Part shown: positions 39,951 to 44,808 of the stretch, piece after piece | Position numbering within the stretch: position 1 is the first letter of the stretch | How the letters are laid out: each line of letters begins with the position of its first letter | NCBI GenBank assembly: GCA_002701845.1 | Contig: NZXG01000006.1 | Location: forward strand, 1-64,000 | Direction of reading: 5' to 3' | DNA: 64,000 nucleotides | Origin: Pseudomonadales bacterium | GTDB lineage: Bacteria; Pseudomonadota; Gammaproteobacteria; Pseudomonadales; Ketobacteraceae | Program-made: the position numbers and the translations under genes | Notes under the pieces: generated by a model | Databases searched by the model: none | Told to the model about the DNA's origin: nothing | Seen by the model: only the letters and a program-made list of their open reading frames with translations

Positions 39951-42638
39951 ATGGCCGCCAAAAAACCTCTCGTCCTCGTGGACGGCTCCTCTTACCTGTA
40001 TCGCGCCTTCCACGCCCTGCCGCCACTGACCACGTCCAAGGGCCAGCCCACCGGCGCCATCAAAGGCGTGCTCAACATGCTGATCCGGTTGCGCAAGGAT
40101 TACGAACCAGAGCACATGGCCGTGGTGTTCGACGCCAAAGGCAAAACCTTCCGGGATGACCTGTACGCAGACTACAAAGCCAATCGTCCGCCCATGCCCG
40201 ATGATTTGCGGGCCCAGATTGAGCCCCTGCATAACGCCATCCGGCTGATGGGCTTGCCATTGTTGATCATTGACGGGGTGGAGGCGGACGATGTCATCGG
40301 CACCCTGTGCCGGCAGGCTGGTGAGCAGGGCATCGATACCATTGTTTCCACCGGCGACAAGGACATGGCGCAACTGGTAAACGATCATGTCACCCTGATC
40401 AACACCATGACCGACAGTAAGATGGATTACGACGGTGTCGTGGAGAAGTTCGGCATCACCCCGGAACAAATCATCGATTACCTGGCTCTGGTGGGGGACA
40501 GCGTGGACAATATTCCCGGGGTGCCCAAGTGCGGCCCCAAAACCGCGGTGAAATGGCTAAAGGAATACAACAGCCTGGATCAGCTGATGGCGCACGCCGA
40601 CGAGGTTAAAGGCAAGATCGGCGACAATCTGCGGGCCAGCCTGGAGCAACTGCCCCTGTCCCGGCAGCTGGCCACCATTAAAATGGACGTGGAACTGGAG
40701 CAACAACCCACGGATTTGAGTATTCAGGAACCGGACAACGCTGCCCTGCTGGAATTGTATAAAGACCTGGAATTCAAAGGCTGGATCGCCGAGCTGTCCG
40801 GCGAAGTGGAAGCGGAAGTGGGCAGCGCCGACACCGACTACGAATGCGTCACCGACAAAAAAACGTTTCATCAGTGGCTGGACACCCTCAAGCAAAGCGA
40901 CGCCTTCGCCTTCGATACCGAAACCACCAGCCTCAACTACATGGTGGCGGAACTGGTGGGGGTGTCGTTGGCGGTGGCGCCGGGCAAGGCCGCTTATGTG
41001 CCGGTGGCCCACGATTATCCCGGCGCACCGGAGCAGCTGCCCCGGGACTGGGTGCTGGAACAATTGAAACCCTTGCTGGAAGCCGATCAACCGCAAAAAA
41101 TCGGCCAGAACCTGAAGTACGATAAAAGCGTGCTGGCGCACTATGCTATCGATCTGCAGGGTATCGGCTATGACACCATGCTGGAATCCTATGTACTGGA
41201 TTCCACCGCCACCCGCCACGACATGGACAATCTGGCACTGAAATATCTGGGCCACAAAACCATCGGCTTTGAAGAGATTGCCGGTAAGGGCGCCAAGCAA
41301 CTCACCTTCAACCATATCGCCTTGGAACAGGCCAGCGATTACGCGGCTGAGGACGCCGATATCACCCTGCGCCTGCATCAGGTGTTGTGGCCACGGCTGG
41401 AACAGGAAGGCGAGTTGAGCAAAGTGTTCACAGACATCGAGATGCCGCTGCTGCCGGTGTTGTCACGGATGGAACGCACGGGCGCGTTGCTGGACGCGGA
41501 TATGCTGCGCCAGCACAGCAAACAGCTGGCGAAGCGCATGCACGAACTGGAACAGGAGGCCCACGACATTGCCGGTGAAACTTTCAACCTGGGCTCCACC
41601 AAACAACTGGGGCACATCCTGTTTGAAAAACTGGGGCTGCCGGTGATCCAGAAAACCCCCAAGGGCGCCCCATCCACCGCCGAACCGGTGCTGCAGGAAC
41701 TGGCGCTGGACTACCCCCTGCCCAAAGTGCTGATGGAATACCGGGGCCTGTCCAAACTCAAATCCACCTACACCGACAAACTGCCGGAACTGATCAATCC
41801 GGACACCGGCCGGGTGCATACCTCCTATCATCAGGCGGTGGCCGCCACTGGCCGGCTGTCCTCCTCCGACCCCAACCTGCAGAATATTCCCATCCGTAAC
41901 GAAGAGGGCCGCAAGATCCGCAAGGCCTTCGTGGCGCAGGATGGCTGCAAGCTGGTGGCGGCGGACTACTCGCAAATTGAACTGCGCATCATGGCCCACC
42001 TTTCCAATGATGGGAACCTGTTACGGGCGTTCAATGAGGGGCTGGATATTCACCAGGCCACCGCCGCCGAAATCATGGGGGTGGCACTGGATCAGGTGAC
42101 CGGGGAAATGCGGCGTAACGCCAAGGCGGTGAACTTCGGTTTGATCTATGGCATGTCCGCCTTTGGCCTGGCCAAACAGCTGGGCATCGGCCGCAACGAA
42201 GCCCAGGAATACATCGATAACTACTTTCACCGCTACCCCGGCGTACACGAGTATATGGAAAACATCCGCGAGCAGGCCCGCAGCCAGGGCTACGTGGAAA
42301 CCCTGTTCGGCCGCCGGCTGCACCTGCCTGAGATTCAGTCCCGCAACGTACCCCGCCGGCAGGCGGCGGAGCGCACCGCCATCAATGCCCCGATGCAGGG
42401 CACGGCGGCGGACATCATCAAGCGCGCCATGATCGAAATGGACGCCTGGCTGATCAAAAAACAACTGGGTGCGCGGATGATTATGCAGGTACATGATGAA
42501 TTAATATTCGAAGTGCCGGAAAAAGAATTGGACACCGTCACGAAAGCGATCACAAAACGCATGCAAGGGGCGGCGGAACTGAAAGTTCCCTTGCTTGTGG
42601 ACATCGGGGTGGGCGATAATTGGGACCAAGCTCATTAG
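39951..42638 (+). CDS. polA: DNA polymerase I
   Basis: An 895-residue polymerase with all three activities. The 5'-3' exonuclease (1-290) shows LVDGSSYLYRAFHALPPLTT and the DxD clusters; the 3'-5' proofreading domain (about 300-490) keeps its carboxylates (FDTETTSL, DYAAEDADITL); the polymerase domain (500-895) has motif A (ADYSQIELRIMAH), motif B (RRNAKAVNFGLIYGMSAFGL) and motif C (QVHDEL). It fills gaps in repair and removes RNA primers. A MITE-like element lies 103 bases upstream, so its promoter may be altered. An sRNA gene and engB follow, as in other gammaproteobacteria. Confidence 0.98.
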   Translation: MAAKKPLVLVDGSSYLYRAFHALPPLTTSKGQPTGAIKGVLNMLIRLRKDYEPEHMAVVFDAKGKTFRDDLYADYKANRPPMPDDLRAQIEPLHNAIRLMGLPLLIIDGVEADDVIGTLCRQAGEQGIDTIVSTGDKDMAQLVNDHVTLINTMTDSKMDYDGVVEKFGITPEQIIDYLALVGDSVDNIPGVPKCGPKTAVKWLKEYNSLDQLMAHADEVKGKIGDNLRASLEQLPLSRQLATIKMDVELEQQPTDLSIQEPDNAALLELYKDLEFKGWIAELSGEVEAEVGSADTDYECVTDKKTFHQWLDTLKQSDAFAFDTETTSLNYMVAELVGVSLAVAPGKAAYVPVAHDYPGAPEQLPRDWVLEQLKPLLEADQPQKIGQNLKYDKSVLAHYAIDLQGIGYDTMLESYVLDSTATRHDMDNLALKYLGHKTIGFEEIAGKGAKQLTFNHIALEQASDYAAEDADITLRLHQVLWPRLEQEGELSKVFTDIEMPLLPVLSRMERTGALLDADMLRQHSKQLAKRMHELEQEAHDIAGETFNLGSTKQLGHILFEKLGLPVIQKTPKGAPSTAEPVLQELALDYPLPKVLMEYRGLSKLKSTYTDKLPELINPDTGRVHTSYHQAVAATGRLSSSDPNLQNIPIRNEEGRKIRKAFVAQDGCKLVAADYSQIELRIMAHLSNDGNLLRAFNEGLDIHQATAAEIMGVALDQVTGEMRRNAKAVNFGLIYGMSAFGLAKQLGIGRNEAQEYIDNYFHRYPGVHEYMENIREQARSQGYVETLFGRRLHLPEIQSRNVPRRQAAERTAINAPMQGTAADIIKRAMIEMDAWLIKKQLGARMIMQVHDELIFEVPEKELDTVTKAITKRMQGAAELKVPLLVDIGVGDNWDQAH

Positions 42639-42764
42639 TTTGGGCGGGTCCCCCCAATGCCCGCCTCATAATCCCCTGATGAGCTTGAATAATAACCATA
42701 ACGCGTGGGGATTCCGCCTTAGACCAACGGGTCACTAAATTCTTAAAATTTTTTTGAATTCAGT

Positions 42765-42792
42765 GAAACTTTTCCCGACTCAGTTCGTCTTA
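42765..42792 (+). promoter_or_regulatory. Sigma-E/AlgU-type promoter of the polA-engB small RNA
   Basis: GAAACTT (42765-42771), a 16-base spacer and TCTTA (42788-42792) fit the extracytoplasmic sigma-E/AlgU consensus (GAACTT, N16, TCTnA). Start of transcription is expected near 42799. An imperfect inverted repeat (GGGGATTCCGCCTTAG at 42707 and its partner at 42803) brackets it. Confidence 0.6.
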
Positions 42793-42798
42793 CTTACT

Positions 42799-42912
42799 GA
42801 AGCTAAGGCAGCAATCCCCAGCCGATTCTATATCGGCTACAGCAAACCGGCTTTCCCCCAAGAGCCGGAACCCTGAGCCGGTAGCTTGCCCCAAGGCTAC
42901 CGGCTTTTTTTT
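42799..42912 (+). ncRNA. Candidate small RNA between polA and engB (ErsA/Spot 42 position)
   Basis: About 112 nucleotides predicted from the promoter above to a terminator. It has three hairpins: AGCCGAT/ATCGGCT (about 42820-42838), CCGGCT/AGCCGG with a pyrimidine-rich loop containing TTCCCCC (about 42847-42868), and a ten-base terminator stem with a T-run. The polA-engB gap holds Spot 42 (spf) in enterics and the AlgU-dependent sRNA ErsA in Pseudomonas aeruginosa; position and the sigma-E-like promoter point to an ErsA-like RNA. Sequence homology has not been checked. Confidence 0.65.
42876..42912 (+). terminator. Rho-independent terminator of the small RNA
   Basis: AGCCGGTAGC, loop TTGCCCCAAG, GCTACCGGCT, then eight T. 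The T-run touches the engB stop codon on the other strand. Confidence 0.92.
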
Positions 42913-43555
42913 ATTCCTTTTCACCACCCTCGGCAGCACTGAACCAGTCCGCCAACCGACTGCGGGCCGCGTCCACACCGGTTTTATTGAGTGCGGAAAA
43001 CAGCTGCACCGAGACCGGCACGGTCACATCCGCCACCGCCTTGCGCACCGCAAACAACTGCTGGTTGGCGGCATTGCGCTTCAGCTTGTCGCTTTTGCTG
43101 AGCAGAATATGCACTGGCATTGCATAATGCTCGACCCACTCCAGCATCATCCGGTCAAACTCCTTCAGTGGATGACGCACATCCATCACCAGAAACAATC
43201 CCACCAAGCACTGCCGCTGCTCCAGATAGGCGCCCATCTGGGCCTGCCATTCCCGCTTCAGATGCTCCGGCACCTGGGCATAGCCGTAGCCCGGCAGATC
43301 CACCAGCCGCCACTCCGGCGTGACCGCAAAGAAATTGATCAGTTGGGTACGCCCCGGCGTTTTACTGGTGCGGGCCAGGCCACTGTGATCCACCAGGGCA
43401 TTTAGGGCACTGGATTTGCCGGCGTTGGAGCGACCGGCAAAGGCGATTTCCACGCCGGCCTCCGGTGGGCACTGATCCAGGCTGGGGGCACTGGTGAGAA
43501 ACCGCGTCTGGCGCAGGATCGGGGTAAAGTCATCCGGGGACATGGGCATCGGCAT
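42911..43555 (-). CDS. engB: Ribosome-biogenesis GTPase EngB (YihA/YsxC)
   Basis: A 214-residue GTPase needed for assembly of the large ribosomal subunit. G1 is [16 protein letters not shown]2 lies in [12 protein letters not shown]3 is [12 protein letters not shown]4 is SKSDKL. The start MPMPMSPDD has several in-frame methionines and the exact one is not certain. It is convergent with the small RNA, and divergent from the cytochrome c5 gene, so the 180-base gap beyond its start carries two promoters. Confidence 0.95.
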
Positions 43556-44085: not shown

Positions 44086-44727
44086 ATGAAACTGGTATCC
44101 AACGTGCTGGTGGCCGCCATCCTGGCCACCGGAGCGGTAAACTGGGCACAGGCCGCCGGCGACCCCCAGGCGGGCAAAGAAAAATCCGCCACCTGCGCCG
44201 CCTGCCACGGCCCCAACGGCAACAGCACCATTCCCAACTTCCCCAAGCTGGCAGGCCAGGTTGAAAAATACACCCTCAAGCAGCTGCAGGATATGAAAAG
44301 CGGTGCCCGTCAGGTGCCCCAGATGACGGCCATTGTGGCCGGACTGTCGGATCAGGACATGGCGGATCTGGCCGCTTACTACGCGGAGCAGGAGGTGACC
44401 ACGGGTACCGCCGATCCCGAACTGGCGGAAAAGGGCGCCAAACTCTGGCGCGCCGGTAACGCCGAAGCCGGTGTTACCGCCTGTGCCGGGTGCCACGGCG
44501 CCGCCGGTAAAGGTATGCCGGAAGCCGCCTTCCCGGCGCTGGCGGGTCAACACGCCGCCTATACCCAGGCTCAGCTGGAAGCCTTCCGCGCCGCCGGCCG
44601 GGGCGATCATGAAGGCCCCTATCGCAACAACGACGGGGACGCCATGATGATGCGCTCCACCGCTGCCCGTCTGACTGATGACGACATCCAGGCTCTGGCG
44701 AGCTTTATCAACGGTTTGTACGACTGA
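44086..44727 (+). CDS. Diheme cytochrome c4
   Basis: A 213-residue periplasmic cytochrome with a signal peptide (ending near WAQAA) and two homologous heme domains: C-A-A-C-H and C-A-G-C-H, each followed by a methionine ligand region (ARQVPQMTAI; DAMMMRS). Cytochrome c4 passes electrons to cbb3-type or other terminal oxidases and is usually tied to the inner membrane surface. It follows cytochrome c5, and a strong terminator comes 19 bases after the stop. Confidence 0.96.
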   Translation: MKLVSNVLVAAILATGAVNWAQAAGDPQAGKEKSATCAACHGPNGNSTIPNFPKLAGQVEKYTLKQLQDMKSGARQVPQMTAIVAGLSDQDMADLAAYYAEQEVTTGTADPELAEKGAKLWRAGNAEAGVTACAGCHGAAGKGMPEAAFPALAGQHAAYTQAQLEAFRAAGRGDHEGPYRNNDGDAMMMRSTAARLTDDDIQALASFINGLYD

Positions 44728-44745
44728 TCCCCGATCGGTATCCAT

Positions 44746-44779
44746 AAAAAAACCCGGCACACCATAGCCGGGTTTTTTT
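44746..44779. terminator. Bidirectional terminator
   Basis: AACCCGGC - acaccata - GCCGGGTT flanked by A-run and T-run; ends cytochrome c4 on the plus strand and the converging SHP cassette on the minus strand. Confidence 0.93.
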
Positions 44780-44808
44780 CTTTCCACTGGCTTATTTCCG
44801 GGCTCTGA

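Follow-up and report, generated by a model that had tools for sequence, protein, structure and literature searches.

The window, that is, the whole stretch of 64,000 nucleotides analysed here (contig NZXG01000006.1 of a member of the Ketobacteraceae, Pseudomonadales), carries two convergent genes, polA on the plus strand and engB on the minus strand, both of which were identified by profiles above their curated cut-offs (for polA also that of NF004397). The gap between them, in which a preliminary description had placed a small RNA, contains a predicted gene with the following anatomy:

39951 to 42638, plus strand: polA, upstream neighbour of the RNA gene (TIGR00593, 989 bits; cut-off 600)
42766 to 42771, plus strand: -35 box AAACTT, of which AACT is identical in 11 of 11 family genomes
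42788 to 42792, plus strand: -10 box TCTTA, after a 16-nt spacer; TCTnA in 11 of 11 family genomes
42798 to 42912, plus strand: predicted small RNA of ∼115 nt (fold, covarying pairs, and a match of the covariance model R2 at 42821 to 42912)
42798 to 42808, plus strand: near-invariant 5′ end of the RNA, TGAAGCTAAGG (mean pairwise identity 0.98 in 11 family genomes)
42816 to 42819, plus strand: unpaired CCCC next to the 5′ end, by sequence and fold a candidate for pairing
42820 to 42838, plus strand: hairpin 1, AGCCGAU...AUCGGCU, loop not C-rich (two-sided changes in 4 of 7 pairs)
42847 to 42868, plus strand: hairpin 2, CCGGCUUU-CCCCCA-AGAGCCGG, with a C-rich loop as candidate seed (two-sided changes in 4 of 8 pairs)
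42876 to 42912, plus strand: hairpin 3 (CCCC loop) and U tract, forming an intrinsic terminator (two-sided changes in 4 of 11 pairs)
42911 to 43555, minus strand: engB (ysxC/yihA; TIGR03598, 240 bits; cut-off 124)

The start of the RNA was placed at 42798 from the -10 box and a step in conservation, its end from the U tract; the engB stop codon shares 2 bases with this predicted 3′ end. As 42798 to 42912 contains neither ATG nor GTG, only a single late TTG, and no open reading frame of useful length with a usual start codon, the RNA is most likely non-coding. The three hairpins, including the C-rich loop, that had been described beforehand were recovered by folding at 42820 to 42838, 42847 to 42868 (CCCCC) and 42876 to 42905 (CCCC), and the stretch from 42797 to 42912 folds with -48.9 kcal/mol, compared with -30.4 (sd 3.3) for dinucleotide shuffles (z = -5.6), none of 200 of which folded as well. 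The strong terminator held up likewise: a U tract follows the stem-loop of hairpin 3 (42876 to 42905), and a terminator scan returned one site only, 42875 to 42906, although the scan is weak taken alone because shuffles average 0.8 sites.

Upstream of the RNA, the promoter lies exactly as first read, with GAAACTT at 42765 to 42771, a spacer of 16 nt and TCTTA at 42788 to 42792. It is one mismatch away from GAACTT-N16-TCTnA, and as 0.08 of shuffled gaps equal it, it could be due to chance if considered alone; it becomes convincing because it is conserved in all 11 genomes of the family and across families. These 11 (own genome included) were those with a match in a DNA search of 57 related genomes. 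In each of them the spacer is 16 nt long, irrespective of its mean pairwise identity of only 0.47, and the -35 box of most relatives reads GAACTT or GAACTA. The aligned RNAs (10 sequences, 9 of them distinct) form 26 pairs, 94.9% paired, with two-sided changes in 12 of the 26; none of 500 column shuffles reached 12, and sliding the structure along the alignment yielded between 0 and 3. Judged by sequence comparison, this pattern of conservation and covariation is that of a genuine RNA preceded by a genuine promoter.

The sigma factor that would recognize such a promoter is encoded in the own genome, where the RpoE model found five matches, one of which was above the curated cut-off. The open reading frames behind this rpoE carry RseA_N and MucB_RseB domains (above the Pfam cut-offs, under those of the NCBIfam equivalogs). 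A GAACTT-N16-TCTTT (one mismatch) precedes rpoE, and a perfect GAACTT-N16-TCTAA precedes rpoH; sigma-E control of both genes is established in other bacteria. Perfect GAACTT-N16-TCTnA occurs only once in the 4.9-Mb genome, compared with six occurrences of the reversed control pattern, which is why only its location before rpoH is informative, not the count.

How far the arrangement extends beyond the family was surveyed with stretches around engB from 40 genomes of 33 families of the order and from 12 genomes of one large-genome genus. From the panel of 40, 17 without polA in the stretch and eight with a gap outside 80 to 520 were dropped before counting (the gaps of L063, L073 and L077 were too short). 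Promoters were then counted in one genome, the first chosen, for each of 15 families whose polA–engB gap was 80 to 900. On the sense strand, seven were perfect and 13 had at most one mismatch; the reverse strand had none of either kind, and shuffles gave 0.06 and 1.2. An intrinsic terminator at fitting distance was present in 13 of the 15. When spacers of 15 to 17 nt were allowed, a count for which the first-chosen genome per family differs, nine families had a perfect promoter and 14 one with at most one mismatch (expected, 0.09 and 1.38). The exceptions in the order include an empty gap in L067 (f17) and a gap without a sigma-E-type promoter in L076 (f24). When the family covariance model, R1, was run at E 0.01 on 390 genomes of the order, it matched in 53, and among the best 21 of these loci (L020 to L040), 15 contained engB, some of them also polA.

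That precisely the sigma-E boxes, together with their 16-nt spacing, are conserved within the family and across families argues against a real small RNA whose transcription relies on a different sigma factor (house-keeping or stationary-phase) and whose likeness to sigma-E genes in the promoter would be incidental. The mismatch in the -35 box of the window would agree with that alternative, as would a weak sigma-70-like site at 42720 to 42749 (9/12) and the absence of such a box from Spot 42, which occupies the same position. We consider it unlikely.

Very unlikely is the view that the hairpins merely terminate polA and form its 3′ end, or act as an attenuator between the two convergent genes, and that they have no promoter of their own. 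Their place between two convergent genes, with the RNA ending at the engB stop codon, is what that view would predict. All 11 genomes, however, retain the promoter boxes despite a drifting spacer, the RNA begins with a near-invariant 5′ end, and termination needs neither hairpin 1 nor hairpin 2. In G006, a genome of the same family, the RNA found by R1 (L024) is preceded by GAAACTT-N16-TCTCA and lies distant from engB, with both polA and engB absent from the 3-kb locus. The gene can thus exist apart from its neighbours, which is to be expected if it is independent. The RNA gene lies ∼7 kb from engB in G014:C7 and ∼2 kb in G012:C20, indicating that insertions split the pair and the RNA was retained. 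Furthermore, the gap of L066 (f8) contains tandem copies of the RNA (at ∼52 to 213 and 260 to 423), each with a perfect sigma-E-type promoter and a terminator. Paired nearby matches of R2 were also observed in L141, L153 and L125. In five genomes of genus g4, which belongs to the window's family (G008, G010, G012, G013 and G014), R1 has a second, weaker match elsewhere, possibly a paralogue.

Promoters of this type were also found across the class. There, 69 engB loci of other families were sampled, of which 40 without polA in the stretch and three with a gap outside 80 to 900 were dropped. In the 26 families counted (gap 80 to 900; one, L117, belongs to the window's order), 10 promoters were perfect and 18 had at most one mismatch; the reverse strand had 1 and 2, respectively, and shuffles gave 0.04 and 1.59. 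Promoter and terminator occurred together in 17 of the 26. The class RNAs share a common build, which consists of a 5′ stem, a hairpin with a CUCCCUGAG-like loop, a CCCC hairpin and a terminator with a C-rich loop. From a trimmed alignment (A4) of 11 of them, none from the window's order, the covariance model R2 was built. As part of the rows of A4 have stem A shifted by one or two bases, R2 is imperfect and its E-values are rough.

Applied to the window, R2 found the RNA at 37.5 bits (E 1.5e-7), with stem B of this model from other orders corresponding to hairpin 2. The runner-up, at 15.4 bits (E 0.042), is a hairpin CCCGGC...GCCGGG with a U tract at 44723 to 44798 (plus strand), which follows a cytochrome c-like open reading frame and is probably an ordinary terminator. 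R2 matched 48 of 53 loci of the order at E ≤1 (missing L024, L041, L044, L045 and L076) and all 12 loci of the ErsA-bearing genus, with 30.6 to 37.5 bits. In the class, 83 of 151 genomes had a match, which in 55 (11 of them training genomes) lay on the opposite strand at most 430 bases past engB, with a median of 30. Among the other 28, the match was on another contig only (13), EngB was not found (8), the match was distant (4), or it lay on engB's own strand (3). As a point against a single family, the whole-genome runs of R2 in class and phylum, which used stricter filters than the window search, did not report the own genome.

Since the training RNAs had been chosen from gaps in which the module was already seen, their promoter count (9 of 11) is not independent. 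Within 150 bases upstream of 31 untrained matches (L133, at E 0.8, excluded), 12 perfect promoters and 23 with at most one mismatch were found. The reverse strand had 0 and 1, respectively, and shuffles gave 0.04 and 0.9. Some of these matches fall in gaps already included in the promoter counts by family. The end of the -10 box usually lies 20 to 37 bases upstream of the model start. An engB-linked sigma-E RNA family was defined here by an R2 match, a GAACTT-N16/17-TCnnA promoter with at most one mismatch, and a place on the opposite strand just past engB, all three of which are found for the window RNA. No description of such a class-wide RNA beside engB was found in the full-text literature, the coverage of which leaves out most subscription papers. 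That the RNA acts mainly in cis, antisense to the engB 3′ end or on convergent transcription, is highly improbable: the engB stop codon does lie over the end of the RNA gene, and the place beside engB is kept in those 55 of 83 matching class genomes, but the overlap with the engB coding sequence is almost nil, the loops are conserved rather than complementarity to engB, and loci away from engB (G006, and G014 at ∼7 kb) retain both RNA and promoter.

As the place between polA and engB is occupied by known small RNAs in other bacteria, the window RNA was compared with named families. Rfam at gathering cut-offs gave no match in the window; for ErsA (RF01719), there was none at gathering (50 bits) in the window, and none at E ≤10 between 42500 and 43200. 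The covariance search with the ErsA and Spot 42 models, which the preliminary description had suggested, thus matched neither to the window RNA. Its proposal of an envelope-stress small RNA stands in so far as a free-standing gene with a sigma-E-type promoter is predicted in the Spot 42/ErsA position of a genome with RpoE; by Rfam score, this gene is neither of the two. In kind, the proposal appears largely right as far as sequence can tell.

With ErsA of Pseudomonas aeruginosa, an Hfq-dependent regulator of algC, amrZ, anr and oprD, the window RNA shares the polA–engB gap, a predicted promoter of the sigma-22 (AlgU) type, an intrinsic terminator with a C-rich stretch in its loop, and a match to R2; it is the positional counterpart of ErsA. 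One of the 12 loci of the large-genome genus (L081), which served as positive control, matched Rfam ErsA at 127 bits and thereby marks that genus as Pseudomonas-like. The available part of PMC5819304 gives 132 nt for ErsA, compared with ∼115 nt for the window RNA. According to the available text of that paper and of PMC8575079, ErsA depends on sigma-22 and acts with Hfq on several targets; its segment predicted to pair with anr comprises the unstructured nucleotides 31 to 54 between two stem-loops (PMC8575079, in part). No such unstructured segment is visible in the single-sequence fold of the window RNA, which has short linkers only.

In its loops, the window RNA resembles sX13 of Xanthomonas (RF02232), which is likewise adjacent to polA, of similar length, and made up of three stems with C-rich loops; the window RNA has three stems as well, with loops 2 and 3 C-rich and loop 1 not. 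The sX13 model scores 21.3 bits on the window (E 0.099; cut-off 50). As far as the available part of PMC3771888 goes, sX13 represses G-rich start regions via its C-rich loops, was Hfq-independent by experiment, and varies in accumulation under stress; the same part states that the polA locus of several groups has small RNAs with three stem-loops and C-rich motifs, asks about further ones, and names no sigma factor or sigma-E control. ErsA is not mentioned in the paper. Thus, the window RNA is ErsA-like in promoter and place and sX13-like in its loops.

Anti-hemB, or Burkholderia RNA 7 (RF02837), also combines a C-rich hairpin with a terminator; its model reaches 21.4 bits on the window (cut-off 49.5). 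In Burkholderia, this RNA adjoins hemB and engB. Anti-hemB was above the cut-off at L170:329-424 (minus strand), directly past engB and on the opposite strand, and near but under it in nine of 10 class loci tested. Beside the L170 match, no hemB but only one unrelated open reading frame was found among those of at least 110 aa. The name anti-hemB may hide an engB-linked RNA.

Spot 42 (RF00021, spf) of E. coli occupies the polA–yihA/engB gap as the window RNA does, and it is annotated as encoding a small protein, SpfP. The 148 bases upstream of it contain no sigma-E box, even with two mismatches allowed. Identity with Spot 42 was rejected, as RF00021 does not match the window and neither R1 nor R2 matches E. 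coli Spot 42. SdsR/RyeB of E. coli (RF00111) has a similar C-rich hairpin and reached 32.0 bits on the window (cut-off 38), and R1 matches E. coli sdsR in its annotated place at 22.2 bits; its genome position is unlike that of the window RNA, and its sigma factor is sigma-S. As seven loci of the same family lack an SdsR match at E ≤1 and R2 misses sdsR, identity with SdsR was set aside but kept as a lead. On the minus strand, 42739 to 42916 matched SraC/RyeA, which in E. coli is antisense to SdsR, with 33.3 bits (cut-off 37); this match probably just mirrors the SdsR-like hairpin.

The C-rich loop of hairpin 2 is strongly conserved, and with low certainty this loop and the unpaired CCCC at 42816 to 42819 may be the pairing sites. 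The loop would differ in this from ErsA, whose mapped pairing segment, in the part of PMC8575079 available, is not a C-rich loop. Complements of the loop were counted in the own genome and in three others and compared with controls: 21 compared with 11 in the own genome, 25 with 16 in G002, a genome of the window's genus, 26 with 16 in G004, and 26 with 25 in G005. Inspection of 51 of these loci (21 of 21 in the own genome, 30 of 77 in the others) revealed no position relative to start sites common to the genomes and no convincing target.

Taken together, we assign a probability of roughly 0.7 to the reading that the stretch in the window is an autonomous, sigma-E-driven gene for an mRNA-pairing small RNA, belonging to an engB-linked family that includes ErsA. 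By comparison, it builds on gene anatomy, conservation and covariation, on the conserved promoter, on the presence of the sigma factor, and on the relation to the wider family by model and position; transcription, sigma-E dependence, action in trans, the seed, targets and a use of Hfq are what we infer beyond this. Envelope stress would release RpoE from RseA, and the RpoE/AlgU-type holoenzyme would then start at ∼42798 from GAAACTT-N16-TCTTA and stop at the terminator at 42912. The resulting RNA of ∼115 nt would act in trans, its unpaired C-rich stretches pairing with G-rich stretches near translation starts, possibly with the help of Hfq, and pairing would mostly lower the synthesis of envelope or other stress-related proteins.

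The wider engB-linked pattern is of more interest than the single gene in the window. As many Gammaproteobacteria show this arrangement next to engB, several small RNAs that were named separately may be versions of one old gene. A tentative extension, which we hold to be possible but slightly more doubtful than probable, is that one sigma-E-controlled small RNA gene beside engB was already present in an early ancestor of the Gammaproteobacteria (in the wide sense), and that ErsA, anti-hemB, probably sX13, and the window RNA are its local forms; the Spot 42 lineage would have, in this place, an RNA lacking both the promoter and the loops, and SdsR might be a descendant that moved. If true, RNA-based control of envelope stress would be old and near-general in the Gammaproteobacteria, recorded under several unrelated names. 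The predicted gene in the window takes an ErsA-type envelope-stress small RNA well beyond Pseudomonas. It becomes testable whether ErsA, anti-hemB, sX13 and Spot 42 descend from one gene, and whether pairing originally took place at the C-rich loop rather than at the segment mapped in ErsA. For uncharacterized bacteria, GAACTT-N16-TCnnA together with C-rich hairpins past engB offers a search rule.

A search of named contigs with the pattern of promoter and 5′ end returned 11 stretches, one from a Ketobacter sp., one from Bartonella, which looks like a chance match, and the rest from gammaproteobacteria, in part metagenome-assembled. At E 0.001, only 18 genomes in a phylum-wide sample of 249 had an R2 match, which also counts against a single family; 16 of the 18 belong to the class. 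Matches outside the class but within the same phylum were observed at G609:C103:11290-11405 and G739:C1:1843365-1843458.
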